Below, in pieces: positions 22,033 to 56,712 of a stretch of DNA of 64,000 nt. Made by a program: the position numbers and the translations under genes. Position 1 is the stretch's first letter. Each line of letters opens with the position of its first letter. A model generated the notes under the pieces. That model ran no database searches, was not told the DNA's origin, and saw only the letters and a list, made by a program, of their open reading frames with translations. The stretch is taken from NCBI GenBank assembly GCA_016184365.1, contig JACPCW010000077.1, forward strand, positions 1-64,000, given 5' to 3'. Source of the stretch: Candidatus Rokuibacteriota bacterium (GTDB taxonomy: Bacteria > Methylomirabilota > Methylomirabilia > Rokubacteriales > CSP1-6).

Positions 22033-22087
22033 GCAGCTTGTCGAGCAAGCGACGTGCCGCTGACATGCAGGTTAAGCTGTCGTGGTG

Positions 22088-22194
22088 GGGCGAAGCCGCA
22101 GCACGGCGTGGCATCGGGAGGTGAGGCCGGTCGACGGCCGAGCCGACACTACGATGAAGAGCCGCAGGCGGAGCGTGTGCGAGGCGAGTCTGTG
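22088..22194 (+). repeat. R1 leader repeat, copy A
   Basis: 107 bp from GGGCGAAGCC to GTCTGTG, nearly identical to copies at 30730-30836 (minus) and 55752-55858. Its last bases are the GTG start codon of the following E1-like gene. An open frame from GTG 22085 to TGA 22195 gives 36 residues (GRSRSTAWHREVRP early, CEASL at the end) and overlaps that start as GTGA. GAGGCGAG, 7-14 bases before the start, can act as a weak ribosome site. The middle carries the hairpin GGCCG-GTCGA-CGGCC. Confidence 0.85.
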
Positions 22195-24585
22195 AGAATC
22201 GATCCCGACCGCCTCGCGTGTCTCCGTGCGCTCGAACAGAAAGTGCTGTGGCTCTCGACGTGGATGGTGCACCACGCGAACCACGTCCGGCCGCATCACG
22301 ACGGGCTGAAGGTCGGCGGCCACCAGGCGTCGTCGGCGTCGTCGCTCGACATCATGACGGCGCTCTACTTCGACGTCCTGCGGCCCGAAGATCGCGTCGC
22401 CGTGAAGCCGCACGCGAGCCCGGTGTTTCACGCGATCCAGTACCTCTACGGCAGGCAGAGCCGCGAAAGCCTCGAGCGCTTCCGCGCGCTCGGTGGCGCG
22501 CAGGCGTATCCGTCGCGAACGAAGGACACGGACGACGTCGATTTCTCGACCGGCTCGGTCGGGCTCGGCGTCGCGCTCACGCTGTGCGCCGCGCTCGTCC
22601 AGGACTACGTCGCGCTGCACGATCTGCTGCCGCCGGGCGTGCGCCCGGGCCGCATGATCGCCATCGCCGGCGACGCCGAGTTCGACGAGGGCAACGTCTT
22701 CGAGGCGATGCTCGAGGGCTGGAAGCACGACGTGCGCAGCGTCTGGTGGATCGTCGACTACAACCGCCAGAGCCTCGACACCGTCGTCAGCGATCGGCTC
22801 TTCACCCGGATCGAGGACATCTGCCGGACGACGGGCTTCGACGTCGTCGTGCTGAAGTACGGCAAGCGGCTCCAGGAGGTCGCGCGCCGTCCGGGCGGCG
22901 AGGCGCTCATCCGCTGGATCGACGAATGTCCGAACTCGGTGTACTCGGCGCTCACGTTCAAGGGCGGCGCCGCGTGGCGCGCGCAGCTCGAGCGCGACCT
23001 CAAGCAGGACGAGACGCGCGCCATCATCGACGCCCTCGACGATGCCGCGCTGCATGCGCTCATGACGAACCTCGCCGGCCACGATCTCGAATCGCTGCTC
23101 GAGGCGTTCCACGCCGCGCCGGACGACCGGGCGCGCTGCTTCCTCGCCTACACCATCAAGGGCTACCGGCTCCCGCTCGCGGGTCACAAGGACAACCACG
23201 CCGGCATGCTCACGCCGGGGCAGCTGACGGCGTTTCAGCGTGAGATGCGCGTGCCGGAGGGGCGCGAGTGGGATCCGTTCGTCGGACTCGACGTGTCCGA
23301 GGACCGGTTGCGCGCGTTTCTCGCGAGCTCGCCCCTCGCGAGCACGGAACGTCGTATCCACGCAGCGCCCGACGTCGCCGTGCCGGACACGGTCGACATC
23401 CCGCGCGACGTCGAAGTCTCGACGCAGACCGGCTTCGGCCGGATCCTGAGCGATCTCGGCTCCGGCGACACGGAGCTCGCCGCGCGGCTCGTCACGACGT
23501 CACCGGACGTGACGCTGTCGACCAACCTCGGCGGCTGGGTGAATCGCCGCGGCATCTTCCATCGCTCGGAGTACCGCGACGCGTTCCGCGACATGGACGT
23601 GCCGTCGCCGCAGAAGTGGGTGATGTCGCCGTCCGGCCAGCACTTCGAGCTCGGCATCGCGGAGCACAACCTGTTCATCATGCTGGCGGCGCTCGGACTG
23701 TCCGCGCCGCTGTTCGGCGTGCGGCTGCTGCCGGTCGGCACGCTCTACGATCCGTTCGTGCTGCGCGGTCTCGATGCCTTCGGCTATGCGTGCTACCAGG
23801 ACGCGCGCTTCATGGTCGTCGGCACGCCGGCCGGCATCAGCCTCGCGCCCGAGGGCGGCGCGCATCAGTCGATCATGACGCCGCTCGTCGGCATGGCGAT
23901 GGACCGGCTCGCGAGCTTCGAGCCCGCGTTCGTCGACGAGCTCGCGGAGATGATGCTGTGGGGCTTCCGTCATCTGCAGGCCGCCGACGGCGGCTCGGTG
24001 TACCTCCGGCTCACGACGCGTCCGCTGCCGCAGCCGCAGCGCGAAATGACGCCGGCGCTGCGCGCCGCGGTGATCGAAGGCGCGTACTGGATACGCGAGC
24101 CGGAGCCCGACACCGATCTCGTGCTCGTGTACTGCGGCGCCGTGGCGCCGGAAGCCATGGCCGCGCACGCCGCGATCGTCGACGACGTCGCCGGCGCCGG
24201 ACTGCTGGCCATCACGTCGCCGGACCGGCTGTACGCCGACTGGCGCGCGAGCAACACCGGAACGCGGTCCCGATCACGCATCGAGCAGCTGCTCGCACAG
24301 GCGCCCGGCGCGGCGCTCGTGACCGTGCTCGACGGACACCCGGCGACGCTGTCGTGGCTGGGCTCGGTGCACGGACAGCGCATGTATCCGCTCGGCGTCG
24401 ATCACTTCGGACAGTCGGGCGACATCGCGGACCTCTATCGCCTGCACGGCATCGACGAAGACGCGATCATCGACGCGGCCGCGCGCGCGTGTCTCGACCG
24501 ATTGAGCTGGGGACCCCGAAATGGCCCCCAGACCCCCAACGCTCGGAGCGCCCCGGGCAACCCGTGGCGCTCCTCGAATTCCTAG
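22192..24585 (+). CDS. Transketolase/pyruvate dehydrogenase E1-like thiamine diphosphate enzyme
   Basis: 797 residues in one chain, built like homodimeric E1 (AceE) and transketolase. The N-terminal thiamine-diphosphate domain shows GHQASSASSLDIMTAL and the cofactor motif GDAEFDEGN with a downstream N. A central pyrimidine-binding domain (GQHFELGIAEHNLFIM) and a C-terminal domain follow. It decarboxylates a 2-keto acid or transfers a two-carbon unit; the exact substrate is uncertain. The GTG start sits at the end of repeat R1, overlapping its small frame. The last 26 residues (from SWGPRNGPQTP) are encoded by repeat R2, so the native C-terminus was replaced. The stop shares CTAG with the convergent nudC stop. 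Confidence 0.85.
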   Translation: MRIDPDRLACLRALEQKVLWLSTWMVHHANHVRPHHDGLKVGGHQASSASSLDIMTALYFDVLRPEDRVAVKPHASPVFHAIQYLYGRQSRESLERFRALGGAQAYPSRTKDTDDVDFSTGSVGLGVALTLCAALVQDYVALHDLLPPGVRPGRMIAIAGDAEFDEGNVFEAMLEGWKHDVRSVWWIVDYNRQSLDTVVSDRLFTRIEDICRTTGFDVVVLKYGKRLQEVARRPGGEALIRWIDECPNSVYSALTFKGGAAWRAQLERDLKQDETRAIIDALDDAALHALMTNLAGHDLESLLEAFHAAPDDRARCFLAYTIKGYRLPLAGHKDNHAGMLTPGQLTAFQREMRVPEGREWDPFVGLDVSEDRLRAFLASSPLASTERRIHAAPDVAVPDTVDIPRDVEVSTQTGFGRILSDLGSGDTELAARLVTTSPDVTLSTNLGGWVNRRGIFHRSEYRDAFRDMDVPSPQKWVMSPSGQHFELGIAEHNLFIMLAALGLSAPLFGVRLLPVGTLYDPFVLRGLDAFGYACYQDARFMVVGTPAGISLAPEGGAHQSIMTPLVGMAMDRLASFEPAFVDELAEMMLWGFRHLQAADGGSVYLRLTTRPLPQPQREMTPALRAAVIEGAYWIREPEPDTDLVLVYCGAVAPEAMAAHAAIVDDVAGAGLLAITSPDRLYADWRASNTGTRSRSRIEQLLAQAPGAALVTVLDGHPATLSWLGSVHGQRMYPLGVDHFGQSGDIADLYRLHGIDEDAIIDAAARACLDRLSWGPRNGPQTPNARSAPGNPWRSSNS
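24508..24576 (+). repeat. R2 double-hairpin repeat, copy 1
   Basis: First hairpin: TGGGGACC paired with GGCCCCCA around CCGAAAT. Second: GGAGCGCC/GGCGCTCC enclosing C-CGGG-CAA-CCCG-T. It lies inside the 3' end of the E1-like gene and up to the convergent nudC stop. Compared with copy 9, the inner stem changes on both sides (CGGC/GCCG to CGGG/CCCG), keeping pairing. Confidence 0.85.
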
Positions 24586-25448
24586 CGCATCGCGAAGTTG
24601 CGGATGATGTAGCCGGCGATGGAGTGGCGCGACGGGCTGATCGGGAGCTGGTCGCGCGGAAACCAGCGCGCGTCTTCCAGCTCGTCGGTATCGACGGCGA
24701 CGTCGCCGCCGGCGTACTCGGCGACGAAGCCCACCATGAGCTGGCTCGGGAACGGCCAGTTCTGGCTGCCGACGTACGTGACGTTCTTCACGTCGACGCC
24801 GACCTCTTCCTTCACCTCGCGGCGCACCGCGCCCTCGAGCGACTCGCCGTTGTCGACGAAGCCGGCGACGAGCGCGTAGCGGCCAGGTGCCCATTCGGCC
24901 TTGCGCGCGAGCAGGCAGCGGTCGCCATCGATCACGAGCGTGATCACCGCGGGGTGCAGGTGCGGATAGTGCTCGTACTTGCACTTCGGGCAGCGCTTGC
25001 CCCATTCACCACCGATGCGCTCCGTCGGTTCGCCGCACCGCGGGCAGAATCCGCTCGTCGACTCCCACCAGAGCGCCTGCATCGCCATGCCGCCCAGGGA
25101 CAGGAGCGTGTCCGGCAGCTTCGTGCCGCGCATCGGGACGACGGTCTGCGGCTGCAGTCCCGACGGGCACGCGCGGTCCTTCGCGACCGGCACGACCCAG
25201 CACGGCGTGCCGTTCCACGTGCCAAGCCAGAAGGGCGCGCGGTCTTCGAGGTCGATCGGGCACGCGCCGGACGGCAGCAGGAACCGGTCGGCGTCGGGCA
25301 CGACGAGCAGCGACTGCTCCTGCACGAGGAGCCAGTGCCCGTCGCCGTCTTTCGGCGCGGCGCCGTGCTTGCCCGGCGTGAATTCCGCGCCGAGGACCTC
25401 GCGGTTGAACGGCAGATAGACGCTGAGCGGCGTGTTGTCGGTCGTCAT
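24582..25448 (-). CDS. nudC: NAD(H) pyrophosphatase/NAD-capped RNA decapping Nudix hydrolase
   Basis: 288 residues. It has an N-terminal domain, a zinc site CPRC...CPKC, the Nudix box (GESLEGAVRREVKEEVGVD, fitting Gx5Ex7REUxEExGU) and SQNWPFP, the NudC-specific variant of SQPWPFP. It hydrolyses NADH to NMNH plus AMP and removes NAD caps from RNA. ATG at 25448 overlaps the stop of the upstream flavin oxidoreductase (ATGA), so the two are translationally coupled. Its TAG stop shares the palindrome CTAG with the convergent E1-like gene. Confidence 0.95.
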   Translation of the reverse strand: MTTDNTPLSVYLPFNREVLGAEFTPGKHGAAPKDGDGHWLLVQEQSLLVVPDADRFLLPSGACPIDLEDRAPFWLGTWNGTPCWVVPVAKDRACPSGLQPQTVVPMRGTKLPDTLLSLGGMAMQALWWESTSGFCPRCGEPTERIGGEWGKRCPKCKYEHYPHLHPAVITLVIDGDRCLLARKAEWAPGRYALVAGFVDNGESLEGAVRREVKEEVGVDVKNVTYVGSQNWPFPSQLMVGFVAEYAGGDVAVDTDELEDARWFPRDQLPISPSRHSIAGYIIRNFAMR

Positions 25449-26455
25449 CGGAGTCCACAGACCTCCGCGATCAGTTCGTACGAGCGCAGCCGCGCCTTCG
25501 GGTCGTGCGTGATCGTGACGATCACGAGCTCGTCCGCGGCGTGCTCGGCGGCGAACGCGGTCAGCTGCTCGCGCACCTGTTCCGGCGCGCCGGCGATGCG
25601 GCGGCGCTGCGCATGCTCGACGATGGCGAGCTCGCGCGGCGTGTAGGGATACCGTTCGGCTTCCTCCACGGACGGATACGGTCCGCCGCGACCGGTGTAG
25701 AGCCGGACGATGAAGAGCTCGCGGCTCTTCGCGAGTCGCACCGCCTCGGCTTCGGTATCCGCGCACACGACGAACACGGCCGCCGCGGCGCGCGGGCTCG
25801 CCAGGCGGCTCGACGGTTGAAAGCGCGCGCGGTATTCCTGCATCGCCTCCACGCTGCCGTCGGCGGAGATGAAGTGCGCGAACGCGAACGCCACGCCGAA
25901 GTGCGCCGCGAGCATCGCGCTCTCGCCGCTCGAGCCGAGCATCCAGATCTCCGGCGTCGTCGTCGTGCGCGGCGTGGCCTTCACGCTGGCGAACGGATGC
26001 TCGCTCGGGAGCGCGTCGTCGAGCCACCCGATGAGATCCGTCACCTGGCGCGGATAGAGCTCCGCGCCGCGCGGCGCGCCGTACGCGAGCGCGCGCGCCG
26101 TGAGCTGGTCGCTGCCCGGCGCGCGGCCGAGCCCGAGGTCGATGCGGCCGGGGAAGAGCGTCTCGAGCATGCGGAACTGTTCGGCGACCTTCAGCGGGCT
26201 GTAGTGCGACAGCATCACGCCGCCGGCGCCGACACGCAGCCGCGACGTCCGCGACGCGACGTGGCCGATCAGGATCTCCGGCGCCGAGCCGGCGAGACCG
26301 GACGTCGCGTGATGCTCCGCGAGCCAGTACCGGTGATAGCCGAGACGGTCGGCGGCGGCCGCGAGCTCGAGCGTTTCCTGCACCGCGTCCGCGGGGGTGA
26401 GACCGCTGCGCACCGGCGATTGATCGAGTACGCTGAGGAGCATCGCTCCGATCAT
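25445..26455 (-). CDS. LLM class flavin-dependent oxidoreductase (LuxA-like)
   Basis: About 336 residues, a bacterial luciferase-like monooxygenase using FMN or F420. Typical signatures are LSVLDQSPVRSG at the start, YWLAEHHATSGLAGSAPEI, RVGAGGVMLSHYSPLKVAEQF and PGRIDLGLGRAPGSD. Two ATGs are possible, 26455 (MIGAMLLSV) and 26443 (MLLSVLDQ); neither has a well-spaced ribosome site and the second matches family starts better. Only 15-27 bp separate it from the divergent flavin oxidoreductase start at 26471. It is coupled to nudC downstream. Confidence 0.9.
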   Translation of the reverse strand: MIGAMLLSVLDQSPVRSGLTPADAVQETLELAAAADRLGYHRYWLAEHHATSGLAGSAPEILIGHVASRTSRLRVGAGGVMLSHYSPLKVAEQFRMLETLFPGRIDLGLGRAPGSDQLTARALAYGAPRGAELYPRQVTDLIGWLDDALPSEHPFASVKATPRTTTTPEIWMLGSSGESAMLAAHFGVAFAFAHFISADGSVEAMQEYRARFQPSSRLASPRAAAAVFVVCADTEAEAVRLAKSRELFIVRLYTGRGGPYPSVEEAERYPYTPRELAIVEHAQRRRIAGAPEQVREQLTAFAAEHAADELVIVTITHDPKARLRSYELIAEVCGLR

Positions 26456-26470
26456 CTTATAGGAGGCCTC

Positions 26471-27616
26471 ATGCTTCGGTTCGGCATCTTCCTCGCGCCG
26501 TTCCACGCGCTGCACGAAAATCCGACGCTCGCGATCGAGCGCGATTTCGAGCTCGTGCAGCATCTCGACCGGCTCGATTACGACGAGGCGTGGATCGGCG
26601 AGCACCACTCGGCCGGACTGGAGATCATTCCGTCGCCGGAGCTCTTCATCGCCGCCGCGGCGGAGCGCACGCGCCACATTCGGCTCGGCACCGGCGTGAG
26701 CTCGCTCCCGTATCACAACCCGATGATTCTCGCGGACCGGATGCAGCAGCTCGACCACCAGACGCGCGGCCGCGCGATGTTCGGCGTCGGTCCCGGCGCC
26801 TTGCCGTCCGATGCCGTCATGCTCGGGATCGATCCGCTCCGGCAGCGCGACATGATGGACGAGGCGCTCGACGTCATCGTGCCGCTGCTGCGCGGCGAGC
26901 CGGTGACGCACAAGGGCGACTGGTTCAATCTCGTCGACGCGCGCCTGCAGCTGCCGCCGTACACGCGCCCGCACATGGAGATGGCCGTGGCGGCGATGGT
27001 CTCGCCGTCGGGCCCGCGCTCGGCGGGCAAGCACGGCATCGGCCTGCTGTCGATCGGGACGGTGATGAAGACGGCGTACATGAGCCTCGCGCAGATGTGG
27101 CAGATCTGCGAAGACATGGCGCGCGAGCACGGCACGCGGGTGACGCGCGACACGTGGCGCGTCGTCACGCCGATGCACGTCGCCGAGACGCGCGAGAAGG
27201 CGCTCGCCGACGTCCGCTTCGGGCTGCGCGACTGGATCCGGTACTACACCGAGGTCATCGCGCTGCCGTTCGAGCTGACCGGGACGCTCGACCAGCGCGT
27301 CGAGCAGTACATCGACACCGGACACGCGATCATCGGCTCCCCGGACGACGCCGTCGCGCGCATCGAGGAGCTGCAGAAGATGTCGGGCGGCTTCGGCACG
27401 ATCCTGCAGCTCGCGCACAACTGGGCCGATTTCCCCGAGACGCTGAAGAGCTACGAGCTGATGGCGCGGTACGTGATGCCACGGTTCCAGGGCTCGAACG
27501 TCGGCCGCGAAGAGAGCACGGCGTGGTCGTCGGCCCGGCGCGCCGCGCTGATGAGCGCCGGCCGGAAGGCGAAAGAGCTCGCGACGAAGAAGTTCACCGA
27601 GGAGCGGAAGCGATGA
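26471..27616 (+). CDS. LLM class flavin-dependent oxidoreductase (limonene monooxygenase-like)
   Basis: 381 residues, luciferase-like TIM barrel. Signatures: FGIFLAPFHALHENP, WIGEHHSAGLEIIPSPELFI, IRLGTGVSSLPYHNPMILADR and RAMFGVGPGALPSD. It resembles the limonene 1,2-monooxygenase branch; a real substrate is unknown. AGGAGG stands 4 bases before the ATG. The stop overlaps the peptidase start (ATGA), and a run of coupled genes follows through 30191. Confidence 0.92.
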   Translation: MLRFGIFLAPFHALHENPTLAIERDFELVQHLDRLDYDEAWIGEHHSAGLEIIPSPELFIAAAAERTRHIRLGTGVSSLPYHNPMILADRMQQLDHQTRGRAMFGVGPGALPSDAVMLGIDPLRQRDMMDEALDVIVPLLRGEPVTHKGDWFNLVDARLQLPPYTRPHMEMAVAAMVSPSGPRSAGKHGIGLLSIGTVMKTAYMSLAQMWQICEDMAREHGTRVTRDTWRVVTPMHVAETREKALADVRFGLRDWIRYYTEVIALPFELTGTLDQRVEQYIDTGHAIIGSPDDAVARIEELQKMSGGFGTILQLAHNWADFPETLKSYELMARYVMPRFQGSNVGREESTAWSSARRAALMSAGRKAKELATKKFTEERKR

Positions 27617-29079
27617 CGGAGACTCGAGCGCCCTTCATCGAGCGGCGCGCGCGCTTTGCCGAAGCGCTCGGCGACGCGCTCGCCATCATCCCCGCGGCGC
27701 AGGAAGTGCCGCGCAACGCCGACACGCACTACGAGTTCCGCCAGGACTCCGACTTCTTCTTCCTGACCGGCTTCGACGAGCCGGACGCGGTCGCGGTCTT
27801 CAACCCGGCGCACGAGAAGGAGCGCTACGCGCTCTTCGTGCGGCCGCGCGACCGCGAGATGGAGATCTGGAACGGCTACCGCGCGGGGGTCGAGGGCGCC
27901 GTCGCCGACTACGGCGCCGACGCCGCGTATCCGATCGATCAGCTGGACCAGAAGCTTCGCGAGTACGTGCTCGACCGCACGGCGCTCGTCTATCGGCTCG
28001 GCAATACCGCGTTCGACGCGCGCATCACGCGGCTGATGGACTACGCGCGGACGATCCGCGCACGCGTGCGGCCGGCGCCGGTTCGTATCGACGAGCCCGG
28101 ACCGATCCTGCACGAGCTGCGGCTGCGCCGGACGCCCGCGGAGCTGGCGCGGCATCGGCGCGCGTGCGAGATCACGCGCGACGGGCACATCGAAGCGATG
28201 CGGTTCGCGCAGCCCGGCATGTACGAATACGAGGTGCAGGCCGCGCTGGAGTACGTCTTCCGCGCGGGCGGCGCGCCGCGCAACGGCTATCCGTCGATCG
28301 TCGCCTCCGGGCCGAACGCCTGCATCCTGCACTACAACGAAAACCGTCGGCGCATGGCGGACGGCGACCTGCTGCTCATCGACGCCGCGTGCGAGTACGG
28401 GTACTTCAGCTCGGACATCACGCGCACGTTCCCGGTGAACGGCCGATTCACCGCGCCGCAGCGCGCGATCTACGACGTCGTGCTGCGCGCGCAGGTGGCC
28501 GCGATCGAAGCGGCGAAGCCCGGCGTGCGCTACGAGGCGCTGCACGAAACCGCCAGGCGCGTGCTGACGGAAGGGCTCGTCGACCTCGGGCTGCTGCCGC
28601 GCGGCGTCGCGGACTCGCTGGCGATGCACCACTACCGTGAGTTCTACATGCACGGCACCGGGCACTGGCTCGGCATGGACGTGCACGACGTCGGCGACTA
28701 CAAGCCGGGCGGCCAGTCGCGACCGCTCGAGCCGGGCATGGTCTTCACGGTCGAGCCCGGCCTCTACATCGATCCGGCGCGCGAGACCGCGACCTTCTAT
28801 CTGCTCGAGTACAGCGAAGAGGAGCGGTGGGACCGCCGCATGCGCCTCGGCGTCGCCGCGGCGAAGAAGATGGAAGAGGAGGAGCGCGCGAAGGTCGAGA
28901 AGATCGTGCACCCGATCCCGAAGGAGTTCCGCGGCATCGGCGTGCGGATCGAGGACGACGTCCTGATCACGCCGGGCGGCCACGAGGTGCTGACGGCGGG
29001 CACGCCGAAGACGATCGAGGACGTCGAGCGCACGTGCGCGGAGCCGTCGCGGCTGCCGCGGATCGGTGGAGGCCGGTGA
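27613..29079 (+). CDS. pepP: Xaa-Pro aminopeptidase
   Basis: 488 residues, M24B family, removing N-terminal residues ahead of proline. The N-terminal AMP_N domain shows PAAQEVPRNADTHYEFRQDS and FFFLTGFDEPDAV. The catalytic pita-bread domain contains the dinuclear-metal ligands in LLIDAACEYGYFSSDITR (two Asp), HGTGHWLGMDVHD (His), FTVEPGLYI (Glu) and GVRIEDDVLIT (Glu). Start overlaps the previous stop (ATGA) and its stop overlaps the cupin start (TGATG). Confidence 0.95.
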   Translation: MTETRAPFIERRARFAEALGDALAIIPAAQEVPRNADTHYEFRQDSDFFFLTGFDEPDAVAVFNPAHEKERYALFVRPRDREMEIWNGYRAGVEGAVADYGADAAYPIDQLDQKLREYVLDRTALVYRLGNTAFDARITRLMDYARTIRARVRPAPVRIDEPGPILHELRLRRTPAELARHRRACEITRDGHIEAMRFAQPGMYEYEVQAALEYVFRAGGAPRNGYPSIVASGPNACILHYNENRRRMADGDLLLIDAACEYGYFSSDITRTFPVNGRFTAPQRAIYDVVLRAQVAAIEAAKPGVRYEALHETARRVLTEGLVDLGLLPRGVADSLAMHHYREFYMHGTGHWLGMDVHDVGDYKPGGQSRPLEPGMVFTVEPGLYIDPARETATFYLLEYSEEERWDRRMRLGVAAAKKMEEEERAKVEKIVHPIPKEFRGIGVRIEDDVLITPGGHEVLTAGTPKTIEDVERTCAEPSRLPRIGGGR

Positions 29080-29465: not shown

Positions 29466-29468
29466 CCC

Positions 29469-30191: not shown

Positions 30192-30198
30192 AGCGCGC

Positions 30199-30729
30199 TC
30201 ATACGCTCGGCAACAGTCGTTCGAGTCGCATACGGGTGATGTCGAAGAGTTCCGCGAGCGCGGCGGCCACTTCGACCTCGCGCGTGTTGCGCAATCGTGA
30301 TTCGAACGCCGCGAGGATCGACGCCTTGTCGTGGTGGCGCACGGCGATGATGAACGGGAAGCCGAACGTCTCGCGGTACGCCACGTCGAGTTGCCTGAAG
30401 CGCACGTGTTCTTCGTCGCCCAATCGGTCGAGACCGGTGGACGCCTGTTCCGCGACGGACGATTCCGTCATGATCGCTGCACGCACCGCTTGGCCGGCCA
30501 GACCGGGATGTGCGCGCAAGAGCTCCAATTGCTCGGCCGGCGACGCCGATCGCACGACGGCGACCATCGCGTCGTGCAGCGCGACGGCGTGCGCGAACGG
30601 CCGCGTGGACCACGCGCGCTCAGCCACCCACGGCGCGTGTTCGAAGATCGGACCGACCGCGCGCGTGAACGCATCGCGGTCCATCCGATTGACTGCCTGC
30701 AGCGTCAGCACGACGGTTGCCCGGTCCAT
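30199..30729 (-). CDS. uraD: 2-oxo-4-hydroxy-4-carboxy-5-ureidoimidazoline decarboxylase
   Basis: 176 residues, the OHCU decarboxylase giving (S)-allantoin in uric acid breakdown. Helical family landmarks: AFTRAVGPIFEHAPWVAERAW, LRAHPGLAG with the catalytic His, TESSVAEQASTGLDRL, and FGFPFIIAVRHHDKASIL. The ATG lies directly at the end of repeat R1 copy B, and the TGA of R1's small frame overlaps it as TGATG. Divergent from the pucG-like gene and next to puuE, both ureide genes. Confidence 0.95.
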   Translation of the reverse strand: MDRATVVLTLQAVNRMDRDAFTRAVGPIFEHAPWVAERAWSTRPFAHAVALHDAMVAVVRSASPAEQLELLRAHPGLAGQAVRAAIMTESSVAEQASTGLDRLGDEEHVRFRQLDVAYRETFGFPFIIAVRHHDKASILAAFESRLRNTREVEVAAALAELFDITRMRLERLLPSV

Positions 30730-30836
30730 CACAGACTCGCCTCGCACCCGTTCCGTTGGCGGCTCTTCATCGTAGTGTCGGCTCGGCCGTCGACCGGCCT
30801 CACCTCCCGATGCCACGCCGTGCTGCGGCTTCGCCC
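30730..30836 (-). repeat. R1 leader repeat, copy B
   Basis: 107 bp, reading toward uraD. It differs from copy A mainly near the 3' end (GCCAACGGAACGGG in place of GCAGGCGGAGCGTG). An open frame from ATG 30842 to TGA 30729 encodes 37 residues with the same GRSRSTAWHREVRP start and CEASL end; its stop shares the A of the uraD ATG. The upstream 69 bp to the divergent aminotransferase start show no further feature. Confidence 0.87.
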
Positions 30837-30905
30837 ATCCATCGATCGGGCACTCTGGCTGATTTTTCCCCGCCGGGCAAGGACGATCCGGTAAGTTCGG
30901 AAGCG

Positions 30906-33052: not shown

Positions 33053-33064
33053 CGCCGGGGTCGC

Positions 33065-43305: not shown

Positions 43306-44139
43306 TCAGGCCATCGAGCCGCCGTCGACCGTGTAGAGCCCGCCGGTCACGTAGCTCGCGTCGTCGGAGAGCAGGAACGTCACGAGGGCGGCGACTTCCT
43401 CCGGCGTCCCGTACCGCCGCATCGGGATCGTCGACGCCATGCGCGCCTGGAACGCGCGGGGGTCGTTCGGGCTGAAGCCGCGCTCGAGCTCGTCGACCAT
43501 GGGCGTGTCGATCGGCGCCGGACAGATCGCGTTCACGCGAATCCCGCGCCGGACGAACTCGATCGCCGCCGTGCGAGTGAGTCCGATGACGGCGTGCTTC
43601 GACGTCGTGTACGCGACCAGGTTCGGACTTCCGCGCAGGCCGGCGATCGATGCCGTGTTCACGATCGCCGCGCCGTCGCGGCCGGCCATCGCCGGCGCGA
43701 CGTGCTTCAGCCCCAGCCACACGCCCCTCACGTTCACCGCGAGCACGCGGTCGAACATCTCCTCGGGATAGTCGACGAGCGGCGCGACCGGCCCGAGGAT
43801 GCCCGCGTTGTTGAAGAACCGGTCGATGCCGCCGAACGCCTCGCGCGCCGCGCGCACGTAGCGTTCGACCTCGGCGCTCCGGGTGACGTCGGCCGTCACC
43901 GTGATCGCCTCGCCGCCGGCCTTGCGCACGGCGGCGAGCGTCGTCTCGAGCCCGCCGGCATCACGGTCGACGAGCGCGAGACGCGCGCCTTCGGACGCGA
44001 GGCGCGCGGCGACGGCCCGGCCGATGCCTCCGGCCGCGCCGGTGATGACCGTCACCTTGTCGGCGAAGCGTCGCCGGTGGTCGAGGGGCGGCCCGGGTTC
44101 CCCGGGGTGCCCCGAGCGCTGGGGGGTGTGGGGGGCCAT
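43306..44139 (-). CDS. SDR family oxidoreductase (FabG-like)
   Basis: 277 residues. TGAAGGIG is at about 33-40, NNAG in the middle, Ser plus Y-T-T-S-K (VAYTTSKHAVIGL) form the active site, and YTVDGG ends the protein. Normal SDRs begin 8-10 residues before the TGA motif. Here the only suitable ATG (44139) lies in the loop of R2 copy 5, and residues 1-about 22 (MAPHTPQRSG...) are repeat-encoded. The nearest other start, a GTG inside beta-1, would shorten the core. Downstream of the RidA gene on the same strand. Confidence 0.9.
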   Translation of the reverse strand: MAPHTPQRSGHPGEPGPPLDHRRRFADKVTVITGAAGGIGRAVAARLASEGARLALVDRDAGGLETTLAAVRKAGGEAITVTADVTRSAEVERYVRAAREAFGGIDRFFNNAGILGPVAPLVDYPEEMFDRVLAVNVRGVWLGLKHVAPAMAGRDGAAIVNTASIAGLRGSPNLVAYTTSKHAVIGLTRTAAIEFVRRGIRVNAICPAPIDTPMVDELERGFSPNDPRAFQARMASTIPMRRYGTPEEVAALVTFLLSDDASYVTGGLYTVDGGSMA

Positions 44140-45618: not shown

Positions 45619-45654
45619 ACGGCCCGGTCCATCGCGACGAAGAGTACTACAGCC

Positions 45655-46337: not shown

Positions 46338-46425
46338 GGTCACATGATAGTCATGAATGGTCAGACACTCCAAGCGTCTCGAATCCCGGGCGAATCGAAT
46401 CGTCTCATCCATGATGGAGGTGCGC

Positions 46426-46923: not shown

Positions 46924-46926
46924 GTA

Positions 46927-46995: not shown

Positions 46996-46999
46996 TTGA

Positions 47000-47782: not shown

Positions 47783-47798
47783 GAGTCTTCTCCGTGAG

Positions 47799-49343: not shown

Positions 49344-49445
49344 GGAGCCGCATTGTAGCGTGGGTAAAACTTTGCGCATCGTTCTGCGCCGATCGCGAAG
49401 ATGGCCGGCCGGCGTCGCGTCTAACCCGGCAGGAGGAGACGCAGA

Positions 49446-49955: not shown

Positions 49956-50161
49956 GCGCGGCGCCGGAGTCGAAGCCGCCCGAGGCACGGGCTGACGAAA
50001 TCCGTCGTGGGCCTCATTCGCTGGCACGAATCCCGATGCGAGACCGAGGCGGCGCGCGCCGTTCCCGGGGTGCATCCCAGCACCCTGGCGTATCGCCTCT
50101 CCGAGTTCGAGACCAGTCGCGACATCCGCTCGAGGCTCTACTGGGGCTGCGTGAACAACTG
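49956..50161. other. Intergenic stretch with a possible HTH-like remnant
   Basis: About 205 bp. One plus-strand frame (50007 to about 50160) contains ETEAARAVPGVHPSTLAYRL, reminiscent of a Fis-type helix-turn-helix, then runs into R2 copy 8. There is no ribosome site or complete domain, so I treat it as possible debris only. Confidence 0.3.
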
Positions 50162-50186
50162 GTCTGGGGGCCATGTCGGGGCCCCC
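50162..50186 (-). repeat. R2 repeat, copy 8 (first hairpin only)
   Basis: CTGGGGGCC-ATGTCGG-GGCCCCCGG as read on the plus strand; only hairpin 1 remains. It lies 5 bp past the stop of the minus-strand deacetylase gene. Confidence 0.8.
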
Positions 50187-50190
50187 GGTC

Positions 50191-51084: not shown

Positions 51085-51172
51085 CGAAGCCTCCGTGAAT
51101 GGGGCGTGGAAACGGCGCGTTCGTCGGCCAGCGGTCCAACTGTACGGTGAGATGATGATCGAAGGAACTACG

Positions 51173-52378
51173 ATGGCGACGCGACCTGGTCGCGGGGCGT
51201 GGTCCGCGCTGACGCTCACCACGGGCGGTCACGCCGCCGGCTCGTTCGCCATGCTCGCCGTCGCGCCGCTCGCACCGCTCCTCCTCGACGCGCTGAATCT
51301 CGGCCGGGCGCAGGTCGGGCTGCTCCTGCCGGCGGCGTATCTCGGCGGCGTGCTGATGGCGCTGCCGGCGGGGTGGTTCACCGACCGGCTCGGTGTGCGG
51401 CTCACGCTCGGTCTCGGACTCGTGCTGATCGGCGTGATGGTGAGCGCCGGCGCGGCCGCCGCGACGTTTCCGGCGCTGCTCGCATGTCTCGTGATCGGCG
51501 GCTTCGGCTTCAGCGTCCTGAATCCGGCGACCGGCAAGGCGATCGTCGACTGGTTTCCGCCACGCCGGCGGGGCGCCGCGATGGGGATCAAGCAGACGGG
51601 GCTCACGCTCGGCGGCGTTGCGGCGTCGCTCGCGCTCCCGCCGATCGCCGCCGCGTTCGACTGGCAGGACGCGCTGTTCGTCGCCGGCTTCGTCGCCGTC
51701 CTGATCGGCGTCGTCATCACGCTCGTCTACCGGCGGCCGCCGGTCGCCGCCGCGGCGACGCCGCCGTCACGCCCGCGCGTCGTCGAGGCCATGGGGTTCC
51801 TGCGACGGCCCGGCGTCGCCGTCGTCTTCGTCTGCGGATTCCTGCTCTCGATCGCGCAGTCCTCGCTGCTCGGCTTCCTGTCGCTCTATGCGCGCGAGAC
51901 GTTCGCATTCACCGCCGTCGCCGCCGGACAGCTGCTCGCCTTCGCGCAGGTGGGCGGCACGGCGGGCCGGCTCGCGTGGGGGTTCGTCAGCGATCGGTGG
52001 TTCGGCGGCCGCCGCCGCCCCGGCATCGTCGTGAACGCGCTGCTCGGCGCCGTGAGCTACGCCCTGCTGTCGTTCGGGCCACGGCTGTCGGACGACTTCC
52101 TGCCGCCGCTCGCACTCGTGGCCGGCATCGGCGCGTTCGGGTGGGTCGGACTGTACTTCGCGCTCGTCGCGGAGATCGGCGGCCCGCGTCACGCCGGTGT
52201 GCTGACCGGGCTGTCGGTGATTTTCTCGTGGAGCGGCGTGCTCGTCGGCCCGCCGCTCTTCGGGGTCGTCGTGCAGATGACCGACGGCTACGTCGCGCCG
52301 TGGCTCGTGCTCGCGGGCATCGGTCTCGTGGTCGCTGCCGTGCTGCCCTGGCCGAAGCCGCTCGTCGATCGCGACTGA
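51173..52378 (+). CDS. MFS transporter
   Basis: 401 residues, 12 predicted spans. The loop 2-3 motif reads GWFTDRLGVRLTL and the loop 8-9 counterpart GFVSDRWFGGRRR. It exports or imports a small organic solute. GAAGGA sits 6 bases before the ATG at 51173; two earlier ATGs (51152, 51155) have no ribosome site. Confidence 0.92.
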   Translation: MATRPGRGAWSALTLTTGGHAAGSFAMLAVAPLAPLLLDALNLGRAQVGLLLPAAYLGGVLMALPAGWFTDRLGVRLTLGLGLVLIGVMVSAGAAAATFPALLACLVIGGFGFSVLNPATGKAIVDWFPPRRRGAAMGIKQTGLTLGGVAASLALPPIAAAFDWQDALFVAGFVAVLIGVVITLVYRRPPVAAAATPPSRPRVVEAMGFLRRPGVAVVFVCGFLLSIAQSSLLGFLSLYARETFAFTAVAAGQLLAFAQVGGTAGRLAWGFVSDRWFGGRRRPGIVVNALLGAVSYALLSFGPRLSDDFLPPLALVAGIGAFGWVGLYFALVAEIGGPRHAGVLTGLSVIFSWSGVLVGPPLFGVVVQMTDGYVAPWLVLAGIGLVVAAVLPWPKPLVDRD

Positions 52379-52388
52379 GCTTTCAGTA

Positions 52389-52602
52389 AACACCTCGACG
52401 ATCTGCCCGTCCGCGTCGTGCCGCATCACGACCCGGCTCGCATCGCACGCCAGGCGCTGCGACGTTCCCGCAGGAACGCGCGGCCCATCCTCGAGGACGG
52501 ACTGGCCGGGTTGATCGGGGTCGGCCAGCACCGCTGCATCGACGTGGACCACGACCTGATAGCGCTCACCCGGCGCCCCGGGATCGAGCTCGTGATGCAA
52601 TA
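52389..52602 (-). pseudogene. Fragment of a DUF222/HNH endonuclease gene
   Basis: The minus strand reads ELDPGAPGERYQVVVHVDAA then PAGTSQRLACDASRVVMRHD, which I recognise as the segment just before the HNH nuclease in DUF222 proteins of about 400-500 residues. The DUF222 part upstream and the HNH motif downstream are both missing; after VEV the similarity stops. About 70 codons survive with no stop, so the fragment is young. Confidence 0.6.
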
Positions 52603-52874
52603 ACCCCCGTTTTCAGAGCCGTCCCGGAGCCTCGTGGAGACGCGTTCTCGCCGTGAACCTCTTTTTTCGCCTCGTCGGTCTCGTCCCGGTCGCAGCGCCT
52701 CAGCGGAGCCTTCCAAATCGGTATCTGACGATGCGCTCCCGACACCCACCGTTGCGCTCGAAAAAAGCTGTCAATGGGAAAATCGGCGGTGGCCGGCGAT
52801 ACGTCGTTCGGCGTCCCTGACGGCGGCCCGGCTATCGATGGCGCCCTCGACGTCAGGTCAACTACACTGCGCCC
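52603..52874. other. Intergenic stretch without recognised feature
   Basis: 272 bp between the HNH fragment and the M20 hydrolase start. It should hold the M20 promoter. No repeat copy, RNA gene or further protein remnant was recognised. Confidence 0.5.
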
Positions 52875-54203
52875 ATGAATCGCGACGCGCTGAAGCGGCA
52901 GCTCTGGCACGCGATCGATCGCCGCGCCGGCGAGATCGTCGCGCTCGGTGAACGCATCTGGAGTCACCCCGAGCTCGGCTTCAAGGAAGCGAAGACGGCG
53001 CGCCTCGTCGAGGAGACGTTCCGCCGGCTCGGGCTCGCGCCGCGCAGCGGGCTTGCCATGACGGGCGTGCGCGCCGAGCTCCGCGGCGGCGCGGGCGACG
53101 GCCCGACGTTCGCGCTGCTCGGCGAGCTCGACGCGCTCGTCGTCGCCGGGCATCCGGCGGCCGACGCGACGACCGGCGCGGTGCACGCCTGCGGCCACAA
53201 CGCGCAGGTGGCCGGGATGCTCGGCGCGGCGATGGCGTTCGCCGACACGGACGTCATCCGCCATCTGGCCGGCCGCGTGGCGTTCTTCGCGGTCCCCGCG
53301 GAAGAAGGCGGCGATCTCGAGTGGCGGCTGGCCCAGGCGCGCGCCGGCAAGCTCGAGCTCTACGGCGGGAAGGCCGAGCTCATCCGGCTCGGCCACTTCG
53401 ACGACATCGATCTCGCCATGATGATCCACACGAGCGCGCGCCGCGAAGACGGCAAGGCGTCGGTGCCGACGTCGAACAACGGTCGCGTCGCCAAGATGGC
53501 GCGGTTCGTCGGCCGCGCGGCGCACGCGGGCAGCGCGCCGTGGAACGGCGTGAACGCGCTCTATGCGGCGCAGATCGCGCTCACGGCCATCAACGCCGTG
53601 CGCGAGACGTTTCGCGACGAGGACACGATCCGCGTGCATCCCGTTCTGACGCACGGCGGCTCGCAGGTCAACGTCATTCCCGGCGAGGCGCGGCTCGAGA
53701 CGTACGTGCGCGGTCGCACGGTCGAGGGCATTGCCGACGCCGAGCGCCGCGTCGATCGCGCGCTGAAGGCCGGCGCGCTCGCGCTCGGCGCGCGCGTCGA
53801 GATCGAGACGCTGCCCGGGTATCTGCCGCTCGCGTGCGATCCGACCATGACGCGCTTCTTCCGCGAGAGTGCCGCCGCGCTCGTCGGCGCCGAGCATTAC
53901 CGCGACGCCGGCCACCGCACCGGATCGACCGACATGGGCGATCTCTCGCAGATCATGCCGGTGCTGCATCCGTACATGGGCGGCGCGCGCGGGACGAACC
54001 ACGCGGCCGACTGGCGCATCGCGGATCCGGAGCTCGCGTACGTCATGCCGGCGAAGGCGCTGGCGGCCATGGTGGTCGACATGCTCGCCGGCGGCGCCGC
54101 CGGCGCGCGCGAGGTGCTGACGCGCGGCAGGCCGAACATGACGCGCGAGCAATATCTCGCGTTCCAGCGCGCTGCCGCGCGTCACGACGTGTTCGAAGGA
54201 TGA
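52875..54203 (+). CDS. M20 family amidohydrolase (AbgB-like)
   Basis: 442 residues. It shows WSHPELGFKEAKTARLVEE at the start, the metal residues GELDAL, HACGHNAQ and PAEEGGD, a dimerisation domain with RAAHAGSAPWNGVNAL, and HRTGSTDMGDLSQIMP near the end. Members hydrolyse N-acyl amino acids or aminobenzoyl-glutamate. Substrate unknown. The gene after it starts 43 bp later on the same strand. Confidence 0.93.
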   Translation: MNRDALKRQLWHAIDRRAGEIVALGERIWSHPELGFKEAKTARLVEETFRRLGLAPRSGLAMTGVRAELRGGAGDGPTFALLGELDALVVAGHPAADATTGAVHACGHNAQVAGMLGAAMAFADTDVIRHLAGRVAFFAVPAEEGGDLEWRLAQARAGKLELYGGKAELIRLGHFDDIDLAMMIHTSARREDGKASVPTSNNGRVAKMARFVGRAAHAGSAPWNGVNALYAAQIALTAINAVRETFRDEDTIRVHPVLTHGGSQVNVIPGEARLETYVRGRTVEGIADAERRVDRALKAGALALGARVEIETLPGYLPLACDPTMTRFFRESAAALVGAEHYRDAGHRTGSTDMGDLSQIMPVLHPYMGGARGTNHAADWRIADPELAYVMPAKALAAMVVDMLAGGAAGAREVLTRGRPNMTREQYLAFQRAAARHDVFEG

Positions 54204-54246
54204 CGCGGCAGGCAACCTCGAGCCGACCTGCGAGGACTGAACGCGA

Positions 54247-55005
54247 ATGACGACCGACACCCCGCGCGACGTGACTGCCGGCAACTATCGCTTCCTGCCC
54301 GGCATCGCACCGTTTTCGTCCGGCGCCGTCGCCATGCCGGGCTTCGAAGTCGTGCACGCCACGCTCCGCGCGCCGATGCCGTGGCGCGGCGGCTTCGCAC
54401 TGATCGATCGCCACCTCCGCGAGCTGGGGCGGCCGCGCGCCGCGCTGTGCGCGATCGAGCTGCGCAGTCCGGCGCCCTTCACGTTCGGCGGCTTCGACGA
54501 GTTCAACGCCGGGTATCGCGCGCTGCTGACGGAGTGGAAGCTGCTCGTCGATGGCGAGAACCCGATCGCCCGGACGAACGTGGCGCCCGTCGTCGGCGCG
54601 CCGCGCGAGCCGTCGCTCTACGGCTTCGGCTACACCGTGCCGGGACGGACGGCGCGCCAGAGCTTCATCGTCGCCGGCGCCGGTGAGCTGCGGGACCGCG
54701 CGAACGGTCCGGACGGCATCGTGCGTCGCGGCGAGACGTCGCCCGACGCCATGCGCGAGAAGGCGACGTTCGTCATGGACACGATGGAGCGCCGCCTCCG
54801 CGGCCTGGGCGCCGAGTGGGCGGACGTCACGATGATCGAGATCTACACGCCGCATCCGATCGAGCCGTTCGTCCGCGACGTCGTGCTCGGACGCGCGGGC
54901 GCGGCCGCGGTGCACGGCGTGCGCTGGTTTCCGAGCCAGCCGCCGATCGTCGGTCTCGAGTACGAGATGGATCTGCGCGGCGTCTATCGCGAGCTCACGA
55001 TCTGA
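54247..55005 (+). CDS. Protein of unknown function, possibly RidA-like
   Basis: 252 residues. The first 160 residues (FTFGGFDEFNAGYRALLTEW, NPIARTNVAPVVGAPREPSL) are well formed but match no family I can name. The C-terminal third (REKATFVMDTMERRLRGLGA, VTMIEIYTPHPIEPFVRD) resembles the strand-helix-strand of RidA/YjgF proteins. Probably cytoplasmic, no signal or spans. Context with the M20 hydrolase suggests a catabolic role (inference). Confidence 0.65.
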   Translation: MTTDTPRDVTAGNYRFLPGIAPFSSGAVAMPGFEVVHATLRAPMPWRGGFALIDRHLRELGRPRAALCAIELRSPAPFTFGGFDEFNAGYRALLTEWKLLVDGENPIARTNVAPVVGAPREPSLYGFGYTVPGRTARQSFIVAGAGELRDRANGPDGIVRRGETSPDAMREKATFVMDTMERRLRGLGAEWADVTMIEIYTPHPIEPFVRDVVLGRAGAAAVHGVRWFPSQPPIVGLEYEMDLRGVYRELTI

Positions 55006-55014
55006 GCCGCGGCC

Positions 55015-55401
55015 GTGCTGCTGCCCGCGGTCGTCCTCGCCCTCATCGCGCTCGGCATCCTCGTCCGCCGCATCGGCGGAACGCGTCCGGCGACGGGCAT
55101 CGAGCGCCTCTACGTCGCGCTCGCGCCGGCGCCGTTCGTGCTCGCGCTGGTCATCCCCGCCGTCATCGGGCTCGCGCTCGGTTTCGGTGCCGGCGCGCAC
55201 GCGTGGATCCGCGCGCTCACCTGGAGCGCGATCGGTCTGAGCCTCCTGCTCGGCGCCGCCGGCGTCGCCCTGGTCGTCCGCGCTGCGGTGCGTGGCGAGC
55301 GCTGGGGCTGGCCGCTCGGGGCGATGACGGTGCTCGCGAGCGTGCCGCTCGCGCTCGTTGCGCTCACGTACGTTCTCTTCTGGCTCGCCGCGCGCCTCTG
55401 A
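55015..55401 (+). CDS. Small integral membrane protein
   Basis: 128 residues from GTG, with four predicted transmembrane helices (LLPAVVLALIALGILV; APFVLALVIPAVIGLALGF; WSAIGLSLLLGAAGVALVV; AMTVLASVPLALVALTYVLF). No family recognised. It starts 9 bp after the previous stop, so it is likely co-transcribed. Confidence 0.65.
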   Translation: MLLPAVVLALIALGILVRRIGGTRPATGIERLYVALAPAPFVLALVIPAVIGLALGFGAGAHAWIRALTWSAIGLSLLLGAAGVALVVRAAVRGERWGWPLGAMTVLASVPLALVALTYVLFWLAARL

Positions 55402-55460
55402 CGGCATCCGACGGGTCCGGCGCGTTCGTGGTACGGGCAGCGACGAACGCGAAAGGAGCC

Positions 55461-55711
55461 CGCGCCGCAGCACCGCGACGAGGCCATCGGCCGGTTCCGG
55501 AAGACGGGCGGGCAGCCGCCGGCCGGCACGACGCTGCTCGGACGCTGGACCGCCGGCCGACGTCAGCGGCGGCTTCGATCTGCTCGAGAGCGACGACGCG
55601 CGCGCGTTGACCGACTTCGCGCTGACGTGGAGCGATCTGCTCGAGCTGCGGATCGTTCCCGTCGTCGACGACGCCGATCTCGGCGAAGCACTGCGTCGCG
55701 CCGGCAAGTAA
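55461..55711 (+). pseudogene. DUF3303-like gene remnant, frameshifted
   Basis: Frame 1 reads QHRDEAIGRFRKTGGQPPAG then TTLLGRWTA. One extra base near 55555 shifts it to DVSGGFDLLESDDARALTDF, WSDLLELRIVPVV and the stop at 55711. Joined, these make the whole of a roughly 90-residue protein like DUF3303 except the first few residues. No start codon remains; AAAGGAG at 55452-55458 may be the old ribosome site. R1 copies C and D begin 40 bp downstream. Confidence 0.6.
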
Positions 55712-55751
55712 GCCCGCGCCCTGGCCCGGGTGCTAGTCTCGGGCGATGGCC

Positions 55752-55858
55752 GGGCGAAGCCGCAGCACGGCGTGGCATCGGGAGGTGAGGCCGGTCGACG
55801 GCCGAGCCGACACCACGATGAAGAGCCGCAGGCGGAGCGGGTGCGAGGCGAGTCTGTG
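55752..55858 (+). repeat. R1 leader repeat, copy C
   Basis: 107 bp, full length. Its frame runs from ATG 55746 to TGA 55859 (37 residues, same core as copies A and B). The stop overlaps the ATG of copy D's frame (TGATG). Copy A differs by one synonymous base in ACT/ACC and one replacement (Val/Gly before CEASL). Confidence 0.87.
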
Positions 55859-55864
55859 ATGGCC

Positions 55865-55923
55865 GGGCGAAGCCGCAGCACGGCGCGGAGCCGCAGGCGG
55901 AGCGGGTGCGAGGCGAGTCTGTG
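55865..55923 (+). repeat. R1 leader repeat, copy D (48-bp internal deletion)
   Basis: 59 bp with both R1 ends but lacking 48 bp (16 codons) from the middle. Its frame, ATG 55859 to TGA 55924, has 21 residues and still ends CEASL. The stop overlaps the nucleotidyltransferase ATG. Copies C, D and the gene thus form a chain of three frames joined by TGATG. Confidence 0.85.
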
Positions 55924-56712
55924 ATGGACCTCGACGCCGAGCTGCGGCGCATCACCGAAGCGCTCGACGGCGGCGGTGTGCGGTATGCGCTGGCCGGCGG
56001 GCTCGCCGTCGCGATCTACGCGACGCCGCGCGCGACCGAAGACGTCGATCTGCTCGTCGCCGGCGCTGATCTCGACGCGGCCATCGCGGCGATCACGGGG
56101 CTTGGGTTTCGTGCGGCCGGGCCGCCGATGGACGTTGCGCGCGGCCGGCTGCGCATTCACCGTCTGCTGAAGTTCGAGCAGCAGGACCTGCTGCTCGTGG
56201 ATCTGCTCGTTCCCCAGGATCAGGATCTCGGCCGACTGTTGGACGAGCGCAGTTTCGTCGACTGGCAGGGTCAGCGGATCGCCGTGGTGAGCATCGACGG
56301 TCTGAGTGCGCTGAAGCGGTTGCTCGGGACGGCGCAGGATCGCGCCGACGTCGATTCGCTCGCGCCGGTCCGAGGCATGCCTGATCGGGATGTCGGTGCG
56401 GCGCTCCGGGCTGCATCAGTATTGCGCCGACTCTGTCTCAGCCTGCCGCATCTCGCGACGCCGTCGGAAGCGAGGCTGCTGGCGCGCTTCCATCAGCTGA
56501 CGACCGCACCCGAGGGCGTCACGACCGGCGACATCGACGCGCTCGCCGCCGGCTGGCGGACGTGGTGGCGTGCCGGTCGCGTGGCGGAGCTCAGCGCCAT
56601 GGCCGAGCGTGTGACGCGCGCGGTGATCGACAGTGACCGGCGTCTTGCCACGTACGCCGTCGCTGCGCAGGCGGCCCGAACGGACGCCGCGACGCGCGGG
56701 GGTGCCGCGTGA
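55924..56712 (+). CDS. Nucleotidyltransferase-fold protein
   Basis: 262 residues. The NTase motif GGLAVAIYATPRATEDVDLLV-type (GG, R-x-T-x-D-x-D with the metal Asp pair) stands at about 22-44, a further Asp at LVDLL, and an MNT/AbiEii-like continuation to about 145 (GTAQDRADVDSL). The last 110 residues are helical and unfamiliar. Such proteins serve as antitoxin/toxin or tRNA-modifying enzymes; role unknown here. It starts at the end of R1 copy D and overlaps the next gene (GTGA). Confidence 0.8.
   Translation: MDLDAELRRITEALDGGGVRYALAGGLAVAIYATPRATEDVDLLVAGADLDAAIAAITGLGFRAAGPPMDVARGRLRIHRLLKFEQQDLLLVDLLVPQDQDLGRLLDERSFVDWQGQRIAVVSIDGLSALKRLLGTAQDRADVDSLAPVRGMPDRDVGAALRAASVLRRLCLSLPHLATPSEARLLARFHQLTTAPEGVTTGDIDALAAGWRTWWRAGRVAELSAMAERVTRAVIDSDRRLATYAVAAQAARTDAATRGGAA

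Follow-up and report, generated by a model that had tools for sequence, protein, structure and literature searches.

A short repeat without a gene of its own was found to end on the start codons of three genes in the window, a 64,000-nucleotide stretch of Candidatus Rokuibacteriota DNA (contig JACPCW010000077.1), and the same arrangement was detected throughout the genome, where 38 copies with cores of 48 to 110 bp occupy 32 sites. The repeat contains a small reading frame (the mini-frame) whose stop codon overlaps the start of the gene. The repeat is probably mobile, settling on start codons while the gene is kept translatable by stop-restart coupling. The genome containing the window (G000, the own genome) is a 5.58-Mb draft of 146 contigs, labeled C2, C9, C17 and so on; the window is C17:1-64000. 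Comparisons involved two same-genus relatives (G001 and G002) and five relatives that carry copies (G005, G041, G014, G019 and G047), all likewise drafts in which genes may be missed.

Copies in the window

A first-pass annotation of the window had placed the element at start codons, in the orientation of the gene, at three places. All three were confirmed, with cores of 108 bp to the TGA at 22088-22195 (+), 30836-30729 (-) and 55752-55859 (+). An additional short unit at the third place (55865-55924) adjoins a putative nucleotidyltransferase gene, in agreement with the shortened copy that had been described as reaching this gene. The stop codon overlaps the downstream start, as had also been reported, the junction being GTGA at an E1-like gene and GTGATG, which offers a GTG or an ATG start in one frame, at uraD and the nucleotidyltransferase gene.

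Two core forms with identical ends occur: a long one of 108 bp, counted from GGGCG through TGA, and a short one of 60 bp. The short form reads RTG-GNN-GGGCGAAGCCGCAGCACGRCGCGGAGCCGCAGGCGGAGCGNGTGCGAGGCGAGTCTRTGA, and the long form is the short form with 45 to 48 bp of extra sequence inserted in frame at mid-unit. The mini-frame begins with an RTG at the left end and closes with GAG GCG AGY CTR TGA. A frame of 36 to 37 codons had been ascribed to every copy; this applies to the long form, while the short form encodes 21 codons and a stop. The features of the window are listed below. Promoter (-10-like) and Shine-Dalgarno-like sites, here and throughout, were assigned by resemblance to the consensus.

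22073..22078, +, TAAGCT, weak candidate for a -10-like hexamer just 5' of the mini-frame start (TANNNT scan)
22082..22195, +, mini-cistron A, long form, GTG to TGA, 37 codons and stop
22088..22195, +, repeat core A, GGGCG to TGA, 108 bp
22192..24585, +, E1-like thiamine-diphosphate enzyme gene (Pfam), GTG start overlapping the mini-cistron stop (GTGA)
30729..30842, -, mini-cistron B, long form, ATG to TGA (core 30836-30729)
30199..30732, -, uraD (OHCU decarboxylase; Pfam), GTG/ATG start overlapping the mini-cistron stop (GTGATG)
55734..55739, +, TAGTCT, putative -10-like hexamer 6 nt 5' of the mini-cistron start (TANNNT scan)
55746..55859, +, mini-cistron C1, long form, ATG to TGA (core 55752-55859)
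55859..55924, +, mini-cistron C2, short form, ATG to TGA (core 55865-55924), tandem unit
55921..56712, +, putative nucleotidyltransferase gene (below the Pfam cut-off), GTG/ATG start overlapping the stop of mini-cistron C2 (GTGATG)

Mini-cistron C2 follows mini-cistron C1 at a 65-bp step, its ATG overlapping the TGA of the latter. The identity of uraD is firm (PF09349, 160.9 bits), that of the E1-like gene is weak (PDH_E1_M, 26.6 bits versus a cut-off of 23.2), and the nucleotidyltransferase falls below its cut-off (PF14907, 23.3 versus 31.2 bits).

Position of the copies in the genome

The own genome was searched with a 26-bp pattern of the 3' end, which contained RTGA and for which three mismatches were permitted. 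This pattern fitted 37 places and its reversed version none. The 38th copy is 3'-truncated (L094; C17:73739-73792, site C17:73767), and an isolated 3' end lacking the 5' part, at C2:113031, was excluded from the count of 38. RTGA closes 35 of the 38 copies, the exceptions being C2:171522 (GTGG), C9 (CTGA) and the truncated copy; with a search for a 13-bp end only, RTGA followed in 21 of 23. Two tandem units are present at 6 of the 32 sites, and arrays in G005 contain up to 7 unit ends. The first-pass annotation had named copies lying mostly away from start codons, in random orientation or with a broken small frame as evidence against its proposal, and the genome-wide search of junctions revealed none of these patterns in the own genome. 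As regards start codons, orientation, frame and the empty sites of relatives, its picture of a mobile 5' leader that meets genes through a stop/start overlap holds genome-wide.

An upstream open frame of at least 60 codons ends with a TGA at position -8, over the mini-frame start, at 9 of the 32 sites (C2:206643, C38, C65, C108, C35, C51:52128, C78, C89 and C70). The element had been suggested to impose translational coupling. Because an upstream TGA already lies over the mini-frame start at these nine sites, the element there would preserve coupling rather than impose it. Many of the remaining sites look promoter-proximal, having no such upstream frame or a stop located elsewhere, and at several of these the element looks to have replaced a leaderless-looking start.

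Empty sites and target duplications

A joined query of 30 gene starts against G001 and G002 gave 54 matches listed, 30 of which were made into loci. Among these loci, a start-aligned same-genus homologue was available for 19 of the 30 queried starts, with best identities of 70 to 88% and orthology not proven in each case. The element was absent from the 60 nt viewed upstream of all 19 homologous starts, and no match to it was detected anywhere in the genomes of G001 and G002. At C143, C2:113639, C51:65844 and C93, the start of the relative's gene lies 6 to 9 nt after a TANNNT box, a leaderless spacing, and a similar box now precedes the mini-frame start in the own genome.

Exact 9-bp direct repeats were recorded at three places: ATGAGTGAA on both sides of the unit at C70, ATGAAGGGC around the second unit of C143 and ATGAAGGTC around a remnant behind C51:52128. 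In G005, direct repeats reached 12 bp. The clear duplications begin at the ATG itself. Identical flanks (GTGATGGTT) were also seen around the first unit of C78, but between tandem units. For 29 sites in G005 and G041, the left flank and the gene start of the same site shared a mean stretch of 5.55, compared with 4.15 for shuffles (maximum, 5.0 in 2,000). A like resemblance to the gene start was seen for the adjacent unit of the own genome (p = 0.004). There is good support for insertion at RTG, more than for any exact chemistry.

A rather unlikely explanation is that units flanked by RTG spread through recombination or template switching, with no transposase involved. It would account for the tandem arrays with their unit duplications and for the left flank ATGGNN, which is often part of the unit and not of the target, but it does not predict the exact 9-bp repeats at C70, C143 and the C51 remnant, the longer ones in G005 or the single copies at many scattered genes.

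Pairing of the ends and mobilization

The ends of the element can pair, GGGC..GCC..GCAC with GTGC..GGC..GTCT. Stem triplets were complementary in 44 of 58 units of comparable size, while shuffles gave a mean of 20 and a maximum of 29 in 5,000; this set includes some mis-parsed double units, and the shuffles take no account of kinship. Among 201 unselected units, the stem was complementary in 64, versus a shuffle mean of 17. Pairing is kept in four versions (CAC/GTG, GAC/GTC, GCC/GGC and GGC/GCC), indicative of a likely constraint on pairing in DNA or RNA. RNA folding of four units was no more stable than that of shuffles (z, -0.2 to -1.6). A known RNA family was ruled out for the window, which had no Rfam match at the gathering threshold.

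To look for a longer, autonomous version of the element whose ends enclose a gene, the 5' end was searched alone; the idea was rejected. There were 46 matches (control, 20), of which 32 with at most one mismatch and 5 others were copies already known from their 3' ends; the remaining 9 have two or three mismatches.

Repetitive extragenic palindromic (REP) and REPIN elements, which are likewise short, scattered, hairpin-like repeats without their own gene, are moved by RAYT (Y1) transposases. A REP-like hairpin repeat could have inserted anywhere, with survival limited to translation-keeping insertions at start codons, so that selection rather than targeting would produce the observed positions. 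The stem that keeps its pairing through changes fits such a repeat, as do copies located elsewhere in relatives. However, intergenic insertion should be harmless, yet junctions without a gene occur in the own genome only at C22, the truncated C17:73767 and the isolated C2:113031. Furthermore, the clear duplications start with the ATG, direct repeats accompany some insertions, the reading frame is constrained, and the REP-associated Y1 transposase is absent from the copy-rich genomes, on which ground REP/RAYT mobilization was rejected. This explanation is unlikely.

Genes behind the element

A Pfam scan covered the open reading frames (ORFs) that start at the junction at 30 of the 32 sites, and 27 of the 30 gave a match at E ≤ 0.001, 26 of them above the curated cut-off. 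The families are mostly unrelated: LysR, MobA, B12-binding, E1-like, enoyl-CoA hydratase, glyoxalase, methylmalonyl-CoA mutase, Rv0078B-related antitoxin, AMP-binding enzyme, ABC ATPase, rhodanese, prolyl oligopeptidase, LigA, NHL, MFS, uraD, MaoC, D-glutamate cyclase, alpha/beta hydrolase, gpsA, CoA-binding, HD, thiamine-diphosphate enzyme of the ferredoxin oxidoreductase kind, VIT/rubrerythrin, ribosome recycling factor, sigma-54 regulator and the nucleotidyltransferase, which is below its cut-off. ORFs of at least 100 aa were found at 19 of 22 element sites in G000 and at 50 of 69 in G005 and G041.

No Pfam match was obtained for the scanned ORFs at C22, C98 and C17:73767. The copy at C98 is off-frame, and the gene seems to begin slightly downstream in a different frame; the truncated copy at C17:73767 precedes what look like the remains of a gene, which can be read only by switching between two frames. 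Outside the scan were C9 and C51:52128, the latter having a 12-codon relay frame with ATGAAGGTC on either side that leads to the next frame. The real start at C35, C130, C89 and C2:171522 may be an in-frame ATG behind its own Shine-Dalgarno-like site.

Reading frame and unit length

In 31 of the 38 copies the mini-frame is unbroken and has a start codon no more than 9 nt away. Core length from GGGCG to TGA was divisible by three in 35 of the 38, with in-frame lengths of 60 bp (20 copies), 108 bp (9 copies), 105 bp (3 copies), 48 bp and 63 bp, and with the truncated copy, which has no TGA, included. The three off-frame copies (C89, C98 and C2:171522) are each followed by a gene that has an AGGAG/GGAGG-type site of its own and a separate start codon. 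Under a fixed rule, which was framed after the data had been looked at, the frame is broken at three of five sites with their own Shine-Dalgarno-type start (intact at C35 and C130) and at none of the 27 others (Fisher p = 0.002, or p = 0.003 versus 0 of 24 when C22, C9 and C17:73767 are left out). A frame shift within the unit at C9 opens it in frame into the downstream gene.

The off-frame copy at C2:171522 (L010; G000:C2:171439-171547) precedes a ribosome recycling factor gene that has its own Shine-Dalgarno-like site. The frame-shifted copy at C9 (L092; G000:C9:24919-24981) runs in frame into what looks by eye like a hydantoinase B-like frame, adding about 25 N-terminal residues.

Substitutions among the 20 short copies favor third positions (26, versus 18 and 10), and distinct silent variants (11 of 46 possible) outweigh replacement variants (11 of 125 possible). 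Neither these 20 short copies nor the 9 long ones compared had acquired a stop codon through substitution.

Spacing of neighboring units was determined for all fetched loci. Units joined at RTGA had a step of 3n-1 in 70 of 79 distinct combinations of genome, length and junction, whereas junctions without an in-frame stop had a 3n step in 8 of 13; six junctions with another stop were mixed (3, 2 and 1 across the three length classes). The steps span 32 to 110 bp. A stop-start overlap of 4 or 1 nt, as against read-through, requires exactly this 3n-1 versus 3n spacing. Because lengths such as 32, 44, 65 and 68 are shared through descent, the cases are not independent, and binomial p values are too small.

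The first-pass annotation had offered a conserved regulatory peptide as its other explanation. Near-identical peptides before unrelated genes and the silent changes favored in the short form are what an attenuator-like leader common to a regulon might produce. However, the downstream genes have no evident common pathway or visible shared function, their same-genus homologues lack the element, units in G005 and G041 vary in length and sequence while mainly the 3n-1 step is kept, and the RNA of the four folded units gained no stability over shuffles. Such a peptide is improbable, and a regulon was ruled out by the unrelated genes together with the empty homologues.

Distribution across bacteria

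The exact 17-mer GCGAGGCGAGYCTRTGA was present in 31 of 57 genomes of the window's family, f1 (own genome included), with 72 occurrences in G005 and 65 in G041. None of the 38 genomes from the phylum's other families contained it, and the reversed control matched twice across all 95 genomes. A 63-bp short unit matched 11 of 40 genomes (own included) at E ≤ 0.001, a few of them weakly. Scans were also made of a collection with one genome per species, from which the own genome was possibly left out. A longer first pattern had no match there, while a degenerate 19-mer of the 3' end detected 17 loci, 12 of them in metagenome-assembled genomes of Candidatus Rokuibacteriota; the other five (two Pseudomonas, two Streptomyces and one Bacteroides) have no 5' part and look like chance. 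No mycobacterial locus was found in this exact 19-mer scan, which diverged relatives would escape. An artifact of GC-rich, low-complexity sequence or of assembly might be suspected in a GC-rich genome of 146 contigs but can be dismissed, given the 37 matches versus 0 for the reversed pattern, the restriction to one family and the named genomes of the same phylum.

Two recurrent settings were noted in relatives. Copies or arrays at L230, L246 and L249 (G005, G019 and G014) lie directly 3' of a similar gene stop, "..KPV(K/R)W TAG", in three genera. The same hisH-like gene start (by eye) carries the element in two genera, at L152 (G005) and L248 (G014), either by inheritance or as a favored target.

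Observations at odds with insertion at start codons

Several observations weigh against mobile insertion at start codons with the gene left translatable. The 13-bp end was followed by RTGA in only 49 of 88 copies in five relatives by hand count (G005, 20 of 35; G041, 20 of 26; G014, 3 of 9; G019, 2 of 5; G047, 4 of 13). Since the G005 and G041 sets of fetched loci had been picked with a pattern that includes RTGA, only the 13-bp search gives an unbiased rate; its reversed control gave 5 matches in six genomes, so a few of the 88 copies may be chance, and the last letter of the pattern excludes G, so some copies were missed. The RTGA rule is strict in the own genome and holds for about half of the copies elsewhere, the position rule being looser in related genomes, and some of the relatives' rule-breaking copies are units or arrays behind genes or in intergenic DNA. 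Seven of the 32 own sites also depart from the full pattern: C2:171522, C98, C89, C9, C22, C17:73767 and C130, the last having no mini-frame start within 9 nt.

Other points concern the supporting evidence. Random RTGA sites in these GC-rich loci give ORFs of at least 100 aa in 51 to 55%, which makes ORF length alone a weak test. The nine long copies have no clear silent excess (10 of 78 silent versus 22 of 237 replacement), so that the comparison of silent and replacement changes proposed in the first-pass annotation yielded a bias for the short form and not for the long. One of the two relatives at C2:113639 (L106) has no clear upstream box. A 9-bp duplication at all own sites was not supported; the outermost left flank resembled the gene start only marginally (p = 0.054), and own left flanks are often ATGGNN whatever the gene, which argues against duplication as a general feature. 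Finally, among 60 genomes searched, the Y1 transposase was found in 11, including G070 with 5 copies of the 17-mer, and was absent from the copy-rich G000, G005, G041, G019 and G047.

Proposed mechanism and related systems

We infer a scheme of transposition followed by termination-reinitiation. A small, non-autonomous element would insert at the start codon of a gene (RTG, mostly RTGA) in the orientation of the gene, with its TGA sharing bases with the start codon of that gene (RTGA or TGATG). A ribosome bound for the gene, through an overlapping upstream stop or on a leaderless mRNA, would begin the mini-frame instead, terminate at the overlap and then restart on the gene, perhaps aided by a GAGG seven bases upstream that is presumably Shine-Dalgarno-like. 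The insertion would thus be almost invisible to expression and so survive, the element acting like the mycobacterial interspersed repetitive unit (MIRU).

A 2025 review (PMC12548453), citing Supply et al. (1997), describes MIRUs as seemingly mobile repeats that insert at the start codons of genes, carry an ORF coupled through a -4 nt overlap and hardly disturb the gene. As the mechanism proposed here is the one given for MIRU, the element is of a known kind; what is new, as far as the literature searched shows, is its lineage, its diversity and its presence at starts that look leaderless. MIRU-like is therefore a working label that rests on description and not on proven descent. The likeness comprises a short repeat (about 50 to 110 bp) without its own gene, present in many copies at start codons, an internal ORF with a 4-nt stop/start overlap (the RTGA of 35 own copies), tandem arrays and unit lengths of 3n-1, which MIRU units of 77 and 53 bp, the sizes given in PMC4213456 and PMC2453075, also obey. 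The element differs in its Rokubacteria family, in steps of 32 to 110 bp, in its presence on leaderless-looking starts, in an end-to-end stem with kept pairing and in direct repeats of 9 to 12 bp at some sites. The start of the MIRU ORF overlaps the stop of the upstream gene in operons, as the mini-frame start lies under an upstream TGA at nine own sites. The MIRU target is named DTGA, and MIRUs are not known to have a transposase. They are familiar mainly as typing markers of tuberculosis bacteria and are usually seen as a mycobacterial peculiarity of unexplained origin. The term MIRU did not occur in the main text of the bacterial miniature-element literature looked at, and no report of the element in Rokubacteria was present among the matches listed in the open-licence PMC literature.

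Rickettsia palindromic elements are described in PMC2229807 and PMC10969869 as inserted in frame inside proteins with the host gene remaining translatable. The present element would likewise be a small mobile repeat with an open frame that leaves the host gene translatable, but its frame ends in a stop that overlaps a start, and only C9 is an in-frame fusion. Bicistronic designs and natural upstream ORFs, as outlined in PMC12548453, use a short ORF to bring the ribosome to the gene, as the mini-frame would; unlike it, they are single designed or native leaders and not mobile.

A large, varied, lineage-specific counterpart in a distant phylum provides many filled sites, with empty ones in relatives for comparison, and points to start codons that overlap a stop as positions where mobile DNA can repeatedly settle without harm. 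The counterpart also offers a natural experiment in termination-reinitiation, as unit lengths, broken frames and the in-frame fusion track the demands of translation. More tentatively, start-codon-seeking, translation-transparent mobile elements could form a general class with an origin or a spread outside mycobacteria, with a Rokubacteria enzyme that cuts at RTG, a possibility about which we remain somewhat doubtful. Such an enzyme would insert the hairpin-ended unit with a 9- to 12-bp target duplication, leaderless genes would become stop-restart coupled, and unit lengths in arrays would be forced to 3n-1.

Other repeats in the window

A second, unrelated palindromic repeat, GGGGNCCCCGAMATGGCCCCC, had 339 exact matches in the own genome (179 on the + strand and 160 on the - strand; reversed control, 0). 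It occurs in the window at 24509, 36497, 36598, 42976, 44516 and 59800 on the + strand, the last slightly diverged, and at 44131, 46973, 50166 and 61543 on the - strand. This repeat encodes the final 25 to 34 or so codons of the E1-like gene (24480-24585; ..LSWGPRNGPQTPNARSAPGNPWRSSNS), as if the C terminus had been replaced or extended. Two 300-bp stretches with 74% identity, located 854 bp apart (12845-13144 and 13699-13998), look like a local gene duplication.

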